From Hellea sp. (GTDB taxonomy: Bacteria; Pseudomonadota; Alphaproteobacteria; Caulobacterales; Maricaulaceae): a stretch of DNA of 41,397 nucleotides. The notes under the pieces were generated by a model. The model was not told the DNA's origin, made no database searches, and was given only the letters and a program-made list of their open reading frames with translations. Below, in pieces: positions 22,933-31,953 of the stretch. Both the position numbers and the translations under genes were made by a program. Every line of letters starts with the position of its first letter. The stretch's first letter is position 1. Where the stretch lies: contig JAHDFA010000008.1 in assembly GCA_020628495.1 (NCBI GenBank), positions 1 through 41,397 on the forward strand. Reading direction: 5' to 3'.

Positions 22933-24399
22933 TTAACGGAAGACCGGGTCATCCAAACTGCGAAGTTTACGAGAGTGGAGCGTTCCGTTTTCTGCTCCGG
23001 TTTTCATGATGCGCATGGCTTCCAAACCGATATTTAAATGTTGCGCCACGCGGGAACGATAGAAGACCGCTGCTGTACCGGGAAGTTTAATTTCCCCATG
23101 CAGCGGCCTGTCAGAGACACATAGAAGTGTTCCATATGGCACGCGGAAACGGTATCCATTGGCGGCTATCGTTGCGCTTTCCATATCAATTGCAATGGCC
23201 CGGGATTGGTTCAGACGCGGGCGCAGTGCTGCATAGCGCATTTCCCAATTACGGTCATCCGTTGTGACGACCGTTCCGGTGCGAACATGTCGCTTCATCT
23301 CTTGGCCCGATAATTCCATCACATCGCCAATCGCATCTGTCAGAGCAATTTGCACCTCGGCAATTGTCGGGAGAGGAATATCCGGCGGCAAAACATCATC
23401 CAAAACTTGATCATCCCGCAAATAGGCATGCGCCAAAACGAAATCACCCAAAATTTGAGATGACCGCAAGCCGCCGCAATGCCCCAGCATCAGCCAGCAA
23501 TGGCTACGGAGGACTGCGATATGGTCTGTTATTGTTTTCGCATTTGAAGGTCCGACACCAATATTAATCAGCGTAATGCCCATCCCGTCTTCGGCCATGA
23601 GGTGATAAGCCGGCATTTGCGGTAATTTGTAATTTGGATCTTCCGCATAATCCGCCCCATCGGTAATAACGCCCTGACCGGGCGCGCAAAAACCCGTAAT
23701 TGCGGGATCCGTGCCGACGACCTCCCGCGCGTGTTCAACAAATTCGTCAACATAGCGCTGGTAATTCGTGAAAATTACGAATTTCTGGAAACACCCCGGT
23801 TGCGTGCCGGAATAATGCCGAAGCCGCTGCAGAGAATAATCCGTGCGAAGCGCAGGAAACAGGGCCAGCGGATAAGGCTCATCCGAAGCGCGTTCAGTTA
23901 CCCCGTCAGCCAAATCATCATGGATATGGGTAAGATCAGGTAGCGTGAAATGCTGCCCGATTGCCGCAGAGCGTTCCGCTGTTAATTCAAATGAAGATGG
24001 GTCAATTGCGAATACCAAAGGAATTTTTACGTCTGAAGGCCCGACATAATATTCGACCTCATTCGCGGTCTCAATCCGTGTGAGTTGGTCGAGTAAATAG
24101 CTCTCAAAAATATCGGGCGATGTAATGGAGGTCCCGTACCAGCCTGCACCGCGAATAGAGACAAATCCGGAAAATTTTATATCTCCGCTGCGCCGCTTTC
24201 CAATGCGAACCAGAAGATAGGGATAAGTCGGCATGGGGCCGGCAGGGGCTTCTCCGCTCGCGGCATAGGCTTCAAAGGCTGTGTTCAAATCCTCTACTGC
24301 ACCATTATAAAGTCGCCCCAATTCCCGCATGACCTCATCCTTATTTGCACAAGGGGACAAATCGTTAAAAAATGACGGGATATGGCCGAGTAATTTCAA
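22933..24399 (-). CDS. amn: AMP nucleosidase
   Basis: N-terminal AMNp domain, MGITLINIGVGPSNAKTITDHIAVLRSHCWLMLGHCGGLRSSQ, AIDMESATIAANGYRFRVPYGTLLCVSDRPLHGEIKLPG. Confidence 0.96.
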   Translation of the reverse strand: MKLLGHIPSFFNDLSPCANKDEVMRELGRLYNGAVEDLNTAFEAYAASGEAPAGPMPTYPYLLVRIGKRRSGDIKFSGFVSIRGAGWYGTSITSPDIFESYLLDQLTRIETANEVEYYVGPSDVKIPLVFAIDPSSFELTAERSAAIGQHFTLPDLTHIHDDLADGVTERASDEPYPLALFPALRTDYSLQRLRHYSGTQPGCFQKFVIFTNYQRYVDEFVEHAREVVGTDPAITGFCAPGQGVITDGADYAEDPNYKLPQMPAYHLMAEDGMGITLINIGVGPSNAKTITDHIAVLRSHCWLMLGHCGGLRSSQILGDFVLAHAYLRDDQVLDDVLPPDIPLPTIAEVQIALTDAIGDVMELSGQEMKRHVRTGTVVTTDDRNWEMRYAALRPRLNQSRAIAIDMESATIAANGYRFRVPYGTLLCVSDRPLHGEIKLPGTAAVFYRSRVAQHLNIGLEAMRIMKTGAENGTLHSRKLRSLDDPVFR

Positions 24400-24493
24400 G
24401 TTGGAACTCCGAATGTTAAATTAAATTTTTCAGGCCCTATAGCTTTCCGAACCCATAGGCCAGAAAAATCGTTATCACGTTAAGGTGCGCAAC

Positions 24494-25741
24494 CTATAAA
24501 GGCGAAAGACCTGTCAAGCCAGCAATCGCGATAACGACGGAAGCAATCGCCGCGCTCATAAAATTAGAAAGATTTCCGGCCAAAACCGTTTTCAGCCCGA
24601 GTTTAGAGATTTCCGTTTTTCGCTCAGGCACAACTGCGCTGAGTCCGGCAATCAAAATAGCGAGCCCGCCAAAATTCGCAAAACCGCACAGCGCCAATGT
24701 AATGGCGACTTGCCCCTGTCGTGAGAAATCCTCTTTCACCCCGGTGAAATTAAAATAGGCGAGGAACTCATTGAGAATGACTTTTTCACCGAGAAAACGT
24801 CCGGCCTCTGCCGATTCATTCCACGGCACGCCAATCATCCAAGCCACGGGTTGGAACAGCACGGAGAAAATTCCTTCCAACGACAAATCAGGCTTACCGA
24901 ACCATCCGCCAACGCCGCCCAAAATGCCGTTCAGCAAAGCGATGACCGAAAGCACGGCAATCAGCAACGCCATTACGGCCAGCATGATCTGAAGACCTGT
25001 CATGGCACCATTGGTCAGCGCCTCAATGAGCGATCCTGCTCGTCCGGAGTCCACTTTTTTGGCTTCCTCACTGTCAATATCGAAAGGCGTTTCCGTTTCC
25101 GGTACGAGTATACGCCCCATGAGCAGACCGCCCGGTGCGGCCATGAGCGCAGCGGTGATCAGTAATTTCGGATCAATACCAATCGCGGAGTAAGCGACAA
25201 GGACTGTGCCCGCGACGGAAGACAGGCCCAAGCTCATCATGACGAAAAGCTGGGCGCGCGTGATTTTTGGTAGGTAAGGCAGCACTGTCAGTGGGGCCTC
25301 CGCCATACCGACAAAAATATTGGCGGCGGCACAGGTAGATTCCAAACGGCTGGCACCCGTGATTTTTCGCACGACGGACCCAATTCCGCGAATAATCCAT
25401 GTCATAATGCGCAGATGGAACAGGACAGCAAAGAGAGCGGCGATAAAGATGATGATGGGCAAAATCTGGAAGAAGAAAATAACGTTTGTTCCGCCCTTTT
25501 CATCGCCGAGCTCGCCAAACATAAAGGTCGTGCCTTGTTTGACGAAACCTTTCATGGCTTCGACTCCGGTGGACATGCCGCTCAGAACAAGATCACCCAT
25601 GGGCGTTAAAAGCGCGAAGACAGCAATTGCAATTTGAAGCGCCAAAGTCCGCGCGGCGAGATCATAACGCACAGCCGATTTCGTCTCGGAGAATAGCCAG
25701 GCAACGGCCAGTAAAACGATAATACCAATTAATCCGGTCAT
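24494..25741 (-). CDS. Concentrative nucleoside transporter (NupC/CNT family)
   Basis: NIFVGMAEAPLTVLPYLPKITRAQLFVMMSLGLSSVAGTVL; GVPWNESAEAGRFLGEKVILNEFLAY; CGFANFGGLAI. Confidence 0.96.
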   Translation of the reverse strand: MTGLIGIIVLLAVAWLFSETKSAVRYDLAARTLALQIAIAVFALLTPMGDLVLSGMSTGVEAMKGFVKQGTTFMFGELGDEKGGTNVIFFFQILPIIIFIAALFAVLFHLRIMTWIIRGIGSVVRKITGASRLESTCAAANIFVGMAEAPLTVLPYLPKITRAQLFVMMSLGLSSVAGTVLVAYSAIGIDPKLLITAALMAAPGGLLMGRILVPETETPFDIDSEEAKKVDSGRAGSLIEALTNGAMTGLQIMLAVMALLIAVLSVIALLNGILGGVGGWFGKPDLSLEGIFSVLFQPVAWMIGVPWNESAEAGRFLGEKVILNEFLAYFNFTGVKEDFSRQGQVAITLALCGFANFGGLAILIAGLSAVVPERKTEISKLGLKTVLAGNLSNFMSAAIASVVIAIAGLTGLSPL

Positions 25742-25860
25742 GCGATTTTCCCCGAGGTTCGACCCCGTTTCTCCCCCACGAGAGAGGCGGGCGCAAGGGG
25801 GCGCAAGGTCATGGTTCTGTGGATTATAAATGCACGCTCCGCGCTCACTCACCCAATAAA

Positions 25861-25884
25861 AAAGGCGCCCCGAAGGACGCCTTT
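25861..25884 (-). terminator. Rho-independent terminator for the TonB receptor gene
   Basis: AAAGGCGtccttcggggCGCCTTT read on the minus strand, followed by TTTT. Confidence 0.85.
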
Positions 25885-25911
25885 GATAATTCGTATTCCA
25901 AAAGCGAAGTC

Positions 25912-28900
25912 TTAGAAATCGTAACGTGCACCGAAACGAATTTCGTAAGCAGACGCTTGGTTGATACCAAAGCGCTGACCTTGATTAAGCGTGTTAGGGA
26001 ATGCCGGACGCTCCAATACACCCCAGTCGCTATTGATGAGGTTCGTCAGGTTATCGATAACCATGAAGACTTCGGTACGGTCATCCGCGCGCAGACCCGG
26101 TAATTCCTGACTGATGCGAAGATCAATCTTTGTCCAGCTTGGAGACGTAAATTCATTCCGCTCAGTGCCAGGCAACAGAATGCTGTCGCCGCTATTTCCG
26201 AGGAATGGTGTGAAACGATACAAATCATTCGCAACGCCGTTCAATGTCCGCGAGAATGGTTGACCGGACTGGCTTTGGAAGAAGGCCGAAATATTCGTGT
26301 CATAATCTTTAATAATCCAGTCGCTTCTATTCGCCACAGACGCCGTGAAACGGTGTTTTGTGTTATAGTTTGATGTCGACAGGATTTGCTCTTGCGGGTT
26401 CAGGAACGCACGGTTGTTATAGTTCGAGAATGCGACAGAACTTGTCATAGGCTGAACATCTTGGGCATCAGAGTATGCATAACCTGCACGCATGGACCAA
26501 CCGCTATCCCAACGCTTTGACGCGCCGATTGAGGCCACAAAGGCGCTATTGGATTTGTCCGCATTTGTGAGCGTAAAGCTGTCAATCAAGTCACTGCTGA
26601 ATGTTGGGACAGTCAGGTTATATGTCGTTCCGTTTTCAGTGACTTCAACGTTGCGAGTGCCTGTTTCGACAAGATCGCCGCGCTGGATGATGGCTGTGTT
26701 TTGGCTATCTGACCAAAGCAGGTCGGCCTGGAACAACCATTGGCCACCAAAGAGGCTTTCACCCGTGTCAAAGTCAGGCGTGAAGGTCATACCCAAAGAG
26801 TATTTCCAATCAGATGGGATTTTGAAATCAGGATCGAGATAGTTAATCTCGAAGTTACGTCCAACACCGGTTCCAACACTGTCAAACAATTCTGTAGGAA
26901 TAGCGTAACCGGGACCGTTTGGAACGCCGTCTTCTGCAGCGGTATAGTCCAGTGCAAAAAGGTCAATTCCGGCACGATCACGAAGACGCGCACCCACCTG
27001 GGTGATGTTGTTGGAGGAGTAGTTGTTTGACAGCCAAACATTCGGGTTACCGCCGGAGTAACGACCTGCACCACCGCGAATTTGCAGCGTGTCAGTCGCA
27101 TCAAATGTGAAACCAAGACGCGGTTGGAATAAGCTTTCACCATCAAAGTTTTGCGCATTCGAGAAACCGTAATCGGCTGTGAAAGCCGGGTTTTCTGTTG
27201 GCGTGTCATCGGAGGTATACCAGTCATAGCGGGCACCCAGAATGACTGTCAGATTGTCAGTCATATTCCACTCGTCTTGCGCATATAACGTATTCAGTGC
27301 GTAACCCCAATTGGCGGCTGCGTCGTCAGGGTTTTGCGAGGGGGCGTTATTATATTCAATCTGACTGGCGATACCGTTGCGGAAATCATCGATAGAATTG
27401 AAACGGATTTCAGTCTCAGTGTGCTGAACGAACAGATTGAAGATATCCAACTCTGAATATTCACCACCAAATGTGAAGCTATGATCGCCCATTGTGTAGT
27501 TTGCACGGCCGAAGAGTTGCAGAACTGTGTAGTTCAGATCATTGGACTGACGTGAGTCGTCACCGCCGAGATAAACATCAACGTCGCCTCTGCCAGTCGG
27601 GCTTTCAGCCGTGACACGGAATTCACCAAAATCGTTTCCGCCAAGGGTTTCCTGACGGTTATCGACATCGATATAATTGGCACGAAGTTCTGTAGAGAAA
27701 TTATCCGTCCAGTCAGAGAATAATGAACCGGAGTAAGAGAAGAGCTCTGTGCCGCGCTCATATAAGTGATTGGAGAATTCGAGCTCATCCGTATCGCCAT
27801 CGGAGCGGATGATGTTGAAGCCGTCATTCCAATTGATTGTACCGGAGGCACGATGCGCGTCGCTGATGTTCCAATCCAGACGCACAAGGATTTTGTCGTC
27901 TTTGTTGCCGAAGCTGTCCGGAATAAAGCCGGGGTCATAGTCATAAACTTCTTGGGAAATTCGCGCAATTTCTTCGATTTGTGTTTGACTGATTTGGAAG
28001 TCACCGTCTCCAACAGTAATCGCAGTCTGCGGATATGTGTTCGCCCCGTCGAGACCTTCATAAGACGCGTAGAAGAACAGCTTGTCTTTAATGATTGGGC
28101 CGCCAATACCGACGCCGTAACGGAATTCGTCAAAGTCACCGAAATCGAAATCAACGTCTTTGACATTCTTGCCGCGCAGGGAGTCATTTGTGTAATCGAC
28201 AAATGCGCTGCCGCGGAATTCGTTTGTCCCGGATTTCGTGACAGAGTTGATGTTACAGGCTGTGAAACCGCCATATTTCACGTCAAATGGCGCGATTTCC
28301 ACAGAGACCTGTTCAAGGGAATCATATGGGAAAGGCTGACGCTCTGTTGGATAGCCATTGGAATTCAAACCAAAGCTGTCATTCAATGCAATCCCGTCCA
28401 GCGTGATAGAGTTAAAGCGGGAAGATTGGCCCACACACTGAACGGAGTTGATACCGCCGCGGCCTTCATCAACAAAGACGCGTGGGTCAATCCGGATAAC
28501 GTCGGCAATGTTCCGGTTAATAGCCGGTGCATCTTCAAGTGTTTCCAGACCAAAACTGGCATTTGGACCCAATGCCAAATTAGTCACGACCTGACGCTGT
28601 GCAACAACGATGATTTCGTCTGCGCCAACTGTTTCGCCTTCTAATTGGAAGCTAAGTTGTGTGTCGTCACTCAAGGAGAGTGCTACGCCTTCAACGGATT
28701 CGCCTTGGAAACCGGGGGCGCGGACTGTGATGCTGTAAACACCTGTGATGGGCAGGTTCCGGCCTGTGAATGCGCCGTTGCTGTCCGTGGATAATGTTCT
28801 CGCAAATCCTGTGGATGTATTGACGAGAGCAACAGAAGCATTCGCAATACCGTTACCATTGGAGTCGACAACTGTACCCACAATGGATGAGGACGTGACC

Positions 28901-28998
28901 TGTGCATGTGCGACGCCTGTTGTCGCGGCGAGTGTCAGAGCGATGGTGCTCGCTGACATAATGGCGCTTAGGCCGAAGGAGGCGAAAGTTTTGTTCAT
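25912..28998 (-). CDS. TonB-dependent receptor, Oar-like with N-terminal carboxypeptidase-regulatory-like domain
   Basis: Signal peptide; SSIVGTVVDSNGNGIANASVALVNTSTGFARTLSTDSNGAF; plug SRFNSITLDGIALNDSFG, VTKSGTNEFRGSAF; C-terminal aromatic residue RFGARYDF. Confidence 0.94.
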   Translation of the reverse strand: MNKTFASFGLSAIMSASTIALTLAATTGVAHAQVTSSSIVGTVVDSNGNGIANASVALVNTSTGFARTLSTDSNGAFTGRNLPITGVYSITVRAPGFQGESVEGVALSLSDDTQLSFQLEGETVGADEIIVVAQRQVVTNLALGPNASFGLETLEDAPAINRNIADVIRIDPRVFVDEGRGGINSVQCVGQSSRFNSITLDGIALNDSFGLNSNGYPTERQPFPYDSLEQVSVEIAPFDVKYGGFTACNINSVTKSGTNEFRGSAFVDYTNDSLRGKNVKDVDFDFGDFDEFRYGVGIGGPIIKDKLFFYASYEGLDGANTYPQTAITVGDGDFQISQTQIEEIARISQEVYDYDPGFIPDSFGNKDDKILVRLDWNISDAHRASGTINWNDGFNIIRSDGDTDELEFSNHLYERGTELFSYSGSLFSDWTDNFSTELRANYIDVDNRQETLGGNDFGEFRVTAESPTGRGDVDVYLGGDDSRQSNDLNYTVLQLFGRANYTMGDHSFTFGGEYSELDIFNLFVQHTETEIRFNSIDDFRNGIASQIEYNNAPSQNPDDAAANWGYALNTLYAQDEWNMTDNLTVILGARYDWYTSDDTPTENPAFTADYGFSNAQNFDGESLFQPRLGFTFDATDTLQIRGGAGRYSGGNPNVWLSNNYSSNNITQVGARLRDRAGIDLFALDYTAAEDGVPNGPGYAIPTELFDSVGTGVGRNFEINYLDPDFKIPSDWKYSLGMTFTPDFDTGESLFGGQWLFQADLLWSDSQNTAIIQRGDLVETGTRNVEVTENGTTYNLTVPTFSSDLIDSFTLTNADKSNSAFVASIGASKRWDSGWSMRAGYAYSDAQDVQPMTSSVAFSNYNNRAFLNPQEQILSTSNYNTKHRFTASVANRSDWIIKDYDTNISAFFQSQSGQPFSRTLNGVANDLYRFTPFLGNSGDSILLPGTERNEFTSPSWTKIDLRISQELPGLRADDRTEVFMVIDNLTNLINSDWGVLERPAFPNTLNQGQRFGINQASAYEIRFGARYDF

Positions 28999-29256
28999 TT
29001 TGGTGGACCCATATTTGGTTCGAGAAAATTTGAGCGGCATATGCGCGAGTTATATGACAGGGTTATGACACGCAAATGTGACTCACCGTGATTATTAAAG
29101 TTACCCACATGTGCTCCAAACAGAGCAAAATCCTACGCAATCCCCCATAAATGTGGAGGTTTTATCATCGTTTTTGACCAAAACTCAGGAATTATCCCCA
29201 AATCTAAATTCGCAGAGTCTGTGTTTTTTTGCGCTCTGTTGCTTTAAAACCACACT

Positions 29257-29895
29257 ATGTTGACGCTCTCCCCCCTTCCCGATTCTCCGCGAATCCTTGC
29301 CATTGCAGGTGGGAGTTGTTCCGGGAAATCGACTCTGGCTGCTTATTTGCGCGATTATGTGGGGGCAGAAATCTGCCGCCTTGTCCGACAAGATGATTAT
29401 TATCACGACATACGCGAGCGCGGCGGCTCCCCCATGGTCAATTTCGATATTCCTGAGGCATTGGATTTCGATCTGCTGCGCGAAAATTTACTGGCATTTA
29501 AGAGAAACGAACCCGTCGCATTGCCGAATTATGATTTCACCACCCACCAACGCCGCACGCCGAGCGAGCCGCGCAATCCGCGTCCCTTGATTATCGTCGA
29601 AGGGATTTTGCTGCTGGCCCAAGCGGAATTGCGCGACGTGTTTGACCATAGTGTCTTTATGCGCTGCGCGCCCGAGCTGCGCCTGTCCCGCCGTCTGGAA
29701 CGCGATACAACGGAACGCGGCCGCTCCCGCGATGATGTTTTGCGCCAATTCCACGACCAGGTTGAACCGGCCCATCAATCTTTTGTCAGCCCGTCTCAAA
29801 TTCATGCCGATCTCGTCATCGACCAAACGCAATATATTTCAAATATGACCCGCGTTGTTGAATCCGTCGTGGCATTGGTGAATGCTGGCGCGTAA
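29257..29895 (+). CDS. udk: Uridine kinase
   Basis: P-loop IAGGSCSGKSTLAAYL; DDYYHD; NFDIPEALDFDLL; VEGILLL; RLSRRLERDTTERGRS. Confidence 0.9.
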   Translation: MLTLSPLPDSPRILAIAGGSCSGKSTLAAYLRDYVGAEICRLVRQDDYYHDIRERGGSPMVNFDIPEALDFDLLRENLLAFKRNEPVALPNYDFTTHQRRTPSEPRNPRPLIIVEGILLLAQAELRDVFDHSVFMRCAPELRLSRRLERDTTERGRSRDDVLRQFHDQVEPAHQSFVSPSQIHADLVIDQTQYISNMTRVVESVVALVNAGA

Positions 29896-29926
29896 GGATA
29901 ATCAACGCTAAATATAAAGACCGTCC

Positions 29927-31168
29927 ATGGAACACCGCGCATTTGGCCTGATTGGCATTATTCTTATCCTCTTCATTGCGTGGGCCGCGTCTGAAAATCG
30001 CAAAGCCATTCGACTGCGCACGGTCGGGGCCTGTTTCGCTCTGCAAGTCGCCATCGCGATTTTCGTGCTTTATATTCCGGCAGGCAAAACTGTGCTGGAA
30101 ATCGCGGCAAACAAAGTCTCGACCCTTCTCTCTTATGCGGATGCGGGCATCGGGTTTGTTTTCGGCAATTTGTCCGATTTGGAAGGGTTCTCTTTTCTGG
30201 TAAGAGTTCTGCCCATAATTATTTTCTTCGCCGCGTTAATGGAAGTTCTTTATCATCTTCGCATTATGCAAATTATAGTGCGCTTGGGCGGGTCTGCCAT
30301 TCGCTGGCTGACAGATACGCGTCCGGTGGAAAGTTTGAACGTCATTGCCAATATTTTCGTCGGGCAAACGGAAGCGCCCCTGTCCCTGAAACCCTATCTG
30401 CCCAGCATCGGAAAGCCTGAGCTATTCGCCATTATGGTCTCGGGTCTGGCCTCGGTCTCGGGCACGGTTTTGGGCGGATATATCGCTCTTGGGATTGAGC
30501 CAAAATATCTTCTCGCGGCCTGTTTCATGTCCGCACCGGCCGGATTATTGATGGCCAAAATGATTATGCCCGACTCGTCAACAGATACGAAGGAAGAGAA
30601 ATTACAAAACGCCAAAGCGGTCTACGCCATGGCGGAAACCGGACCGCGTCACCCCAGCATTTTTATGGCCGCCGCAGTCGGAGCTCAAAATGGGGTCAGC
30701 CTGGCCGTTGCCATCGGTGCCATGTTGATTGCCTTTATCTCCCTGATTGCGCTGGTCAACGGCTTGCTGGGCTGGACAGGCGGGTGGTTCGGTCAGGACG
30801 AGCTTTCGCTGCAAATGATTTTGGGCTGGATCTTCTCGCCCGTTATGTGGGCCGTCGGCGTGCCATGGTCCGAAGCTCAATTAGCGGGCGGCATTTTCGG
30901 TGAGAAATTGGTCGTGAATGAATTTATCGCCTTTGGGTCTCTGATAGAGGCGGAAAGCTCGCTTTCGCCAAAATCCGTCGTCGTTCTCTCTTTTGCTTTA
31001 TGCGGCTTTGCCAATATTGGTTCCATCGCCATTCTTCTGGGCGGGCTCGGTACGCTCATTCCTGACCGCATGCCCGACATTGCGCGCATGGGCGTTAAAG
31101 CCGTCTTCGCCGCCAGCCTCGCCAACCTCATGAGTGCGGCTTTGGCCGGGATATTGGTGGGGTTATAG
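29927..31168 (+). CDS. Concentrative nucleoside transporter (NupC/CNT family), paralogue of 24494-25741
   Basis: VIANIFVGQTEAPLSLKPYLPSIGKPELFAIMVSGLASVSGTVLGGY; GVPWSEAQLAGGIFGEKLVVNEFIAF; CGFANIGSIAI. Confidence 0.96.
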   Translation: MEHRAFGLIGIILILFIAWAASENRKAIRLRTVGACFALQVAIAIFVLYIPAGKTVLEIAANKVSTLLSYADAGIGFVFGNLSDLEGFSFLVRVLPIIIFFAALMEVLYHLRIMQIIVRLGGSAIRWLTDTRPVESLNVIANIFVGQTEAPLSLKPYLPSIGKPELFAIMVSGLASVSGTVLGGYIALGIEPKYLLAACFMSAPAGLLMAKMIMPDSSTDTKEEKLQNAKAVYAMAETGPRHPSIFMAAAVGAQNGVSLAVAIGAMLIAFISLIALVNGLLGWTGGWFGQDELSLQMILGWIFSPVMWAVGVPWSEAQLAGGIFGEKLVVNEFIAFGSLIEAESSLSPKSVVVLSFALCGFANIGSIAILLGGLGTLIPDRMPDIARMGVKAVFAASLANLMSAALAGILVGL

Positions 31169-31325
31169 AAGACGTTATCTATTCAAACTTCGTCCCTGTT
31201 TTTCGACGGCTAAAGACAAATAAAATTTAATCACCTCAATCGGTTATAAAAAACTTCAGAAACTCCGTCCTCGTTTTCAGTTTTGAGGGGCATATTTAAG
31301 CTGTTCTTTCAGACATTGGACAGGT

Positions 31326-31780
31326 GAGCGCTTACTTGCTGGTCTGGAGGACGGTAGGGTTGAGCGGCTTGGTGTGAGAACCAAGCGTGTGCCGGACCTT
31401 TTGTGGCGAGAGACGACCGCTGGTTCTTAAACCGGGGCTGTTGTGACTGTCGGAAGATGGGGTTGGTTTGAGGTGGTAGGAAACGCCAAAGGCTGACAGG
31501 TTTGATCATCCTCACCAGATGATGCGGCCTCATGGCAAGTCTGACCGGAAGGGCTAACTGCGGGACCCCCGACCGTTGCATCAAAAACTGCCGCCGCAGG
31601 GCCTAGCAATTGGCGTAAGCCAAATGCGGGGATGGAATGGGCTTTCTGCCCAATCCATTTCGGTCAACGCGAGAAACACTTTTACTATTCGGTACTTCCG
31701 TCGTGGAGGCCGACCCTGCGGGCAGTCCTTTTGCCCAAAGAAGAGAACTTGGCAGACTCCTTGATGGGCTGTGAGCGCTC
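31326..31780 (+). ncRNA. Candidate large structured non-coding RNA, family not recognised
   Basis: No convincing ORF; multiple stems on the plus strand including G-U pairs; 7-bp helix joining the two ends (GAGCGCT 31326-31332 / AGCGCTC 31774-31780); GNRA-capped hairpin TTGGC-GTAA-GCCAA 31610-31623. Confidence 0.5.
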
Positions 31781-31953
31781 TCGCATGGGCTGATTTCATC
31801 CGTAACTTTTTATTAATGACGTCGACCCCGCGATTAAAAGGTCTTCATGTCCACGCCATTCAGCTTGCGTTAATTCACCGAGTCTGCGTTAGTTATAACA
31901 TTGCGCTAAGGAACGAGTGCAAACCCCTACATTGTTAACCCACGGAGCCCGCC

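Follow-up and report, generated by a model that had tools for sequence, protein, structure and literature searches.

The question raised by this locus is what occupies the gap between the genes for a CNT nucleoside transporter (Nucleos_tra2) and a DegP-like protease (Trypsin_2 and PDZ_2) in the window, the 41,397 nt stretch of Hellea sp. DNA analysed here. A check of the open reading frames found no credible ORF in this gap, as an earlier note on the sequence had stated, and several of the stems that it had pointed out there are real. Its description of the gap as a large structured non-coding RNA (ncRNA) on the plus strand, of unrecognised family, also stands, since the locus has no Rfam match, covariation is overwhelming and a sigma70-like -10 element precedes the 5' end. 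The extent of 31310-31800 given at that time is corrected here to 31303 to about 31790, with the 5' end well placed and the 3' end approximate. The neighbouring region 22933-31168 holds an apparent nucleoside-salvage cluster of a nucleosidase-like protein, two CNT transporters, an Oar/TonB-type receptor and a uridine-kinase-family protein; the last of these and one of the transporters were assigned with Pfam and the others by eye.

We addressed whether the locus belongs to a known RNA family. None of the 4227 families of Rfam 15 reaches its gathering threshold at the locus, and the best sub-threshold matches there under relaxed thresholds are at the level of chance (E about 3), so that this check, which had been suggested earlier, assigns the RNA to no known family. 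A scan of the whole window gave a tRNA-Ala as its sole match. RNase P RNA, tmRNA and SRP RNA have a comparable size range and a complex fold, but the RNA described here differs from them in its many copies and in having no Rfam match. Bacterial class A RNase P RNA is normally encoded by a single gene per genome, whereas the ncRNA has about 40 copies, and the class A model RF00010 matches elsewhere in the genome, at C6:18075-18454 with 311 bits. ARAGORN identified only the tRNA-Ala in the window. RNase P RNA and tmRNA, neither of which the earlier note could match to the gap, are rejected.

The ncRNA resembles OLE, GOLLD and ROOL, which are ornate RNAs that form homo-oligomers, in being a large, highly structured bacterial RNA, and in Rfam scans the models of these three families gave no match to the locus. 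It differs from them in its length of 300-500 nt, its chromosomal location, its approximately 40 mosaic copies per genome and its at least 16 alternative self-complementary loop hexamers (see below), and its own oligomerisation is a prediction. A group II intron or retron ncRNA was rejected because there is no Rfam match at the locus and no RVT_1 domain in the complete genome of Litorimonas cladophorae (G013). A Y RNA of a Ro60 system was likewise rejected, as a search for the TROVE domain found no match in G013, G008, G010 or G002; a few weak matches in other genomes have a distribution that does not follow the ncRNA. Literature searches found no description of the family. These results indicate that the ncRNA, as judged from its sequence, falls outside every known family in the tests run and represents a new class of RNA.

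Besides the window genome, 10 further genomes of the genus gave repeated matches to a DNA search with 31310-31800; many of these matches lie at contig ends, where repeats are expected to fall. The complete genome of L. cladophorae has 40 sites that match a 22-base motif from the 5' end of the RNA with up to three mismatches, 19 on one strand and 21 on the other; G008 has 45 such sites and G010 has 44. The control pattern, read backwards, was found at 0-1 sites. Two covariance models that were built separately, R1 for the 5' domain and R2 for the 3' core, recovered at least 24 and at least 30 copies per genome, respectively, in several genomes. By these counts the ncRNA is a dispersed multicopy family with about 40 copies per genome, and its members are about 300-500 nt in length across the family.

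The relatives detected span six genera, all within the family Robiginitomaculaceae. Besides the genomes with these high counts, R1 and R2 picked up weaker relatives in four and five other genera of this family, respectively. The motif search returned L. cladophorae, which is placed in the Robiginitomaculaceae (Maricaulales), and uncultured Caulobacterales MAGs, which marks the source of the window as a Litorimonas-type alphaproteobacterium. Two matches outside the Caulobacterales (L122, Gemmatimonadetes, and L140, Betaproteobacteria) were discarded, the remainder of the RNA being absent from both. R2 had zero matches in 384 other alphaproteobacterial genomes. Neither R1 nor R2 detected a copy in the genus-mates G001, G006, G011, G014 and G017, indicating that the ncRNA is not essential across the genus.

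Of 100 dinucleotide shuffles of the locus, 99 fold less well than its plus strand (z -2.85), and the minus strand does about as well (z -2.64). Folding energy alone is thus not decisive, and it is the comparative evidence that decides. Two independently built domain alignments gave very strong covariation, an outcome that the earlier note had named as a check on its call. In the 5' domain (47 distinct copies) 97.9% of cells are standard pairs and both sides change in 18 of 30 pairs; none of 500 shuffles was as good, and controls in which the pairing was slid gave 32-56% paired cells. In the 3' core (31 sequences) 94.0% of cells are paired, with both-side changes in 11 of 16 pairs. Several pairs are always or mostly G.U (47 of 47 sequences for columns 58-101 and 62-97), which would give A.C mismatches on the opposite strand. 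The features of the locus are as follows.

31260-31302, plus strand: predicted promoter of the ncRNA, with a conserved block around -43 to -32 and the -10 element CATATT at 31291-31296.
31303-31790, plus strand: the ncRNA, about 488 nt, recognised by homology to about 40 copies per genome, a conserved 5' end and a conserved 3' hairpin.
31305-31312 (TCTTTCAG) with 31344-31351 (CTGGAGGA), plus strand: helix P1, 8 pairs, fully paired (100% of cells) across the 47 sequences.
31318-31321 (GGAC) with 31725-31728 (GTCC), plus strand: proposed long-range pseudoknot, with a covarying flanking pair.
31323-31328 with 31335-31340, plus strand: hairpin P2, 6 pairs, 96% paired, 5 with both-side changes.
31327-31332, plus strand: self-complementary hexamer AGCGCT at the tip of P2, the proposed homotypic kissing contact (self-complementary in 124/124 copies).
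31356-31366 with 31390-31400, plus strand: helix P3, 98.1% paired, enclosing P4.
31367-31373 with 31380-31386, plus strand: helix P4, with TGTGAGA on the loop side (module A), 96.7% paired, both-side changes at 7 of 7 pairs.
31420-31592, plus strand: variable inner module region, from module comparison in L. cladophorae, differing between copies.
31594-31601 with 31714-31721, plus strand: 3' core helix, 99.6% of cells paired across 31 sequences, with both-side changes in 6 of its 8 pairs.
31602-31660, plus strand: optional insert hairpins TTGGC-GTAA-GCCAA and GATGGAATGGGC/GCCCAATCCATT, present in some copies only.
31661-31671 with 31702-31712, plus strand: helix PB, with a 2x2 internal loop, 88% of cells paired, compensatory pairs.
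31691-31698 with 31705-31711, plus strand: hairpin PC, 76% of cells paired, compensatory pairs.
31752-31772, plus strand: 3' terminal hairpin GCAG-a-CTCC-ttgat-GGG-CTGT, followed by CGC(A/T)TG; a strict pattern finds it in 52 of 106 copies.

The 3' core helix at 31594-31601/31714-31721 is the best supported of all. Both sides change at four pairs of P1, and its loop holds P2 together with the 5' strand of the long-range pairing. The pair flanking GGAC/GTCC is Watson-Crick in 64 of 107 copies compared with 49.5 in shuffles (0 of 10000 as high), a test that is weakened by the kinship of the copies; inspection by eye shows the pairing compensated in divergent genera. PB and PC have a common 3' strand and are mutually exclusive, yet both covary, and their competition may reflect a conformational switch or a strand exchange inside the 3' core. 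Among the stems proposed earlier, GCTTGGT/ACCAAGC is the covarying P4 and TCGGTC/GGCCGA now lies within PB (31661-31665/31708-31712). The GTAA hairpin and GATGGAATGGGC/GCCCAATCC do exist, but as optional inserts in some copies and not as a general feature of the family, while GGTCTGG/CCGGACC conflicts with the covarying helices P1 and P3 and is not supported.

When 120 copies were aligned at GTTC, a sigma70-like -10 element was seen to be placed exactly 7-12 bases 5' of the conserved start of the RNA, with A at -11 in 96% and T at -7 in 98% of copies. The predicted +1 is the G of GTTCTTT, at 31303 in the window. One copy, on C6, is 96% identical to that of the window, and the homology between the two runs through the promoter region. 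In place of the usual TTGAC -35 box, which it does not resemble, there is a near-invariant ATCC block at about -35 to -32 (31268-31271 in the window; C at -33 in 97%), which may mean that an activator or an unusual sigma factor is involved. From this signature the ncRNA genes are expected to be transcribed. The idea that GTTCTTT is a boxA antiterminator has a loose similarity behind it, the rRNA leader carrying TTTTCTTTGAACG. At the other end, the terminal hairpin shows visible compensation (GCAG/CTGC, GCCG/CGGT, GTCG/CGAT).

Comparison of the copies shows that they are mosaics in which interchangeable modules are set on a common 5' end and 3' core. There are three kinds of module (A, B and C) in L. 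cladophorae, where 5' ends and 3' cores are common to all. The six module C copies share a mean identity of 92% in the module compared with 71-73% in the promoter flank and tail. A positional orthologue was found for 23 of 41 loci (a partial sample). One such site is that 5' of the DegP-like gene, which is occupied in the window genome, G008, G010 and L. cladophorae (L226, where the downstream gene is of the same protein family). At the corresponding site in G009 (L236, about 690-1000) we recognised by eye a very divergent RNA-like sequence overlooked by the sequence search, which has the palindromic hexamer GTGCAC in a hairpin and the core GCCGCGTGGG/CCCACGCGG. The type of RNA at the DegP-like site differs across genomes (A/AGCGCT, A/GAGCTC, B/GTATAC). 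Copies at orthologous sites are 73.1% identical and non-orthologous copies of the same two genomes 73.5%, whereas paralogues of the same genome are 81.3% identical (94.6% for the best paralogue). That paralogues are more alike than copies at orthologous sites indicates concerted evolution, most simply by gene conversion. The copies in L. cladophorae are evenly spaced, at weak significance (P about 0.02).

Tens of dispersed copies on both strands, a mosaic structure with variable inserts and absence from some genus-mates are also features of a non-autonomous mobile element (MITE-, group II- or retron-like), the structure of which would serve its own transposition with no role for the cell. We regard this as unlikely, though the copies may have had a selfish origin. 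Sites are conserved between species, the DegP-like one included, and identity falls off outside the RNA and its promoter. Terminal repeats or target duplications were not apparent on non-systematic inspection, and the complete L. cladophorae genome has no match to a reverse transcriptase. Nor was the ncRNA found in INPHARED phages, PLSDB plasmids or, with two patterns, viral contigs, where one chance match lacked the remainder of the RNA.

The clearest constraint on the family concerns the tip of P2. In 124 copies, gathered with a motif that excludes the hexamer itself, the P2 tip hexamer is self-complementary in every one, although 16 different hexamers occur there; other windows of the first 120 nt are mostly self-complementary in 0-75% of copies. 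Twelve of the hexamers are perfect palindromes (AGCGCT, GAGCTC, GACGTC, AGGCCT, TGATCA, GTATAC, GTCGAC, ACGCGT, GCGCGC, ACATGT, ACCGGT, GGCGCC), and four are self-complementary only through G.U pairs (GGGCCT, GACGTT, GGCGCT, GTGCGC; 21 copies). Shared ancestry inflates the copy counts, but the 16 types have to be accounted for regardless. The rule was kept in 12 of 13 relatives with recognisable 5' ends examined later, the single exception being L276 (G003) with GACGAC. Only 3 of 114 copies repeat their own hexamer further downstream, against 8.1 expected, which argues against an intramolecular partner, so that the partner is most simply another molecule. The same count removes the helix GAGCGCT/AGCGCTC, once proposed to join the ends of the RNA; these ends of the window copy are no feature of the family.

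Palindrome switching in OLE L9.3 and GOLLD L21a has been taken as covariation evidence for intermolecular kissing loops that were seen by cryo-EM (PMC12286853). The same pattern, of palindromes that switch in evolution within a symmetric loop, is found here with 16 self-complementary hexamers in all 124 copies, and suggests that the P2 tip is the signature of a symmetric intermolecular kissing loop through which the RNA would homodimerise. The mechanism is not itself new, having precedents in OLE and GOLLD. In the AGCGCT and AGGCCT types the covariation model places the hexamer partly inside the P2 stem, and a kissing contact would then need partial opening of the stem or a 4-nt core. The HIV-1 dimerisation initiation site is likewise a hairpin close to the 5' end, and the palindromic loop of six bases at its tip starts homodimerisation; it belongs to an unrelated RNA and has very few alternative palindromes, compared with at least 16 in the ncRNA.

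It can be seen in L. cladophorae that the hexamer tracks the inner module, with one exception in 39. Module A copies have AGCGCT, GAGCTC, GGGCCT or AGGCCT, module B copies TGATCA, GTATAC, GTCGAC or GACGTT, and module C copies GACGTC. This sorting fits sets of RNAs that would each pair only among themselves, and it follows equally from shared ancestry.

Conserved trans-encoded sRNAs are known in the Alphaproteobacteria (PMC3927594). As the ncRNA, too, is intergenic, with an apparent promoter of its own and many paralogues, it might be an ordinary trans-acting regulatory family with many members, like sRNA families of the Rhizobiales, its palindrome being a regulatory seed or a minor dimer contact. 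This we consider improbable, since the loop is conserved in its self-complementarity and not in its sequence. The ncRNA, moreover, greatly exceeds typical antisense sRNAs in size and degree of structure, and the trans-encoded sRNAs of the Alphaproteobacteria, some with several paralogues, are much shorter and less structured. We know of no counterpart among those families to its copy number, modularity and loop rule.

It is somewhat more improbable still that each copy is a cis-acting leader or riboswitch for the gene downstream. Such a role would suit the window copy, which lies 5' of a co-directional DegP-like gene, as do those of G008, G010 and G013, and the mutually exclusive PB and PC would be in keeping with it. 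However, the copies stand alone in intergenic regions with mixed orientation to their neighbours: of the 40 in L. cladophorae, only 25 have a downstream gene that points the same way, and the nearby genes that do so have unrelated functions (BipA, phosphoglucomutase, carbamoyltransferase, ribonucleotide reductase (RNR) small chain, HslU-like AAA, MatE and others). The window RNA, furthermore, ends roughly 160 nt short of the DegP-like start. Finally, a DNA operator or other protein-binding palindrome about +25 from the start site would suit the 12 hexamer types (of 16) that are perfectly palindromic as DNA, but this is very improbable given that the other four types (21 copies) can pair with themselves only through G.U, and so only as RNA, that the hexamer is always at the tip of a covarying RNA hairpin, and that one protein is not expected to follow so many unrelated sequences.

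Each of these four explanations fits the evidence less well than a new ncRNA family with homotypic pairing between its molecules, and we consider this joint reading probable. The family itself is secure: the sequences establish it together with its fold, promoter signature, copy number, loop rule, conserved positions and concerted evolution, and to these the reading adds, as proposals, that the copies are transcribed, that their RNAs dimerise in the cell and sort by type, and that they serve as a scaffold or RNP. Each copy would be an intergenic gene in its own right, read from a sigma70-type promoter of its own, and its RNA would fold into a compact core closed by the long-range GGAC/GTCC pairing, with interchangeable inner modules carried on a common frame. 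The tip of P2 would pair with that of another molecule of the same hexamer type, giving homodimers or larger homo-oligomers, and copies with unlike hexamers would not pair. Gene conversion would keep the copies alike within a genome, while their chromosomal positions would be inherited. An extension of this model is that each genome holds several mutually orthogonal sets of RNA, self-sorting by a palindrome code in one loop into homo-oligomeric complexes or scaffolds, with modules shuffled by gene conversion; we put it forward tentatively, as somewhat short of an even chance. No protein partner of the ncRNA was found, and we infer only with considerable doubt that the dimeric RNA would have a structural or scaffolding function in the cell or form the core of an RNP.

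To our knowledge, structured bacterial RNAs of this size are usually encoded by single genes, and few are known to self-assemble. Among described RNA classes we found no counterpart to a family of this kind, in which about 40 mosaic copies per genome keep to conserved sites, are homogenised inside each genome and carry a switchable self-complementary loop. If the pairing is homotypic, the ncRNA would be a new class of self-assembling bacterial RNA, its hexamers a natural library of orthogonal RNA dimerisation loops, and it would allow a direct test of whether RNA-only assemblies are commoner than thought. L. cladophorae, a named type strain with a sequenced genome and 40 copies, makes the question testable at the bench.

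A small palindromic insert of about 35-45 nt, a hairpin with the sequence GTGCATTT...AAATTGCAC or a variant of it, was also observed at varying positions inside ncRNA copies (L053, L072, L076, L084, L092, L148, L196 and L197). It resembles a mini repeat of the REP/RPE type, nested within the ncRNA.
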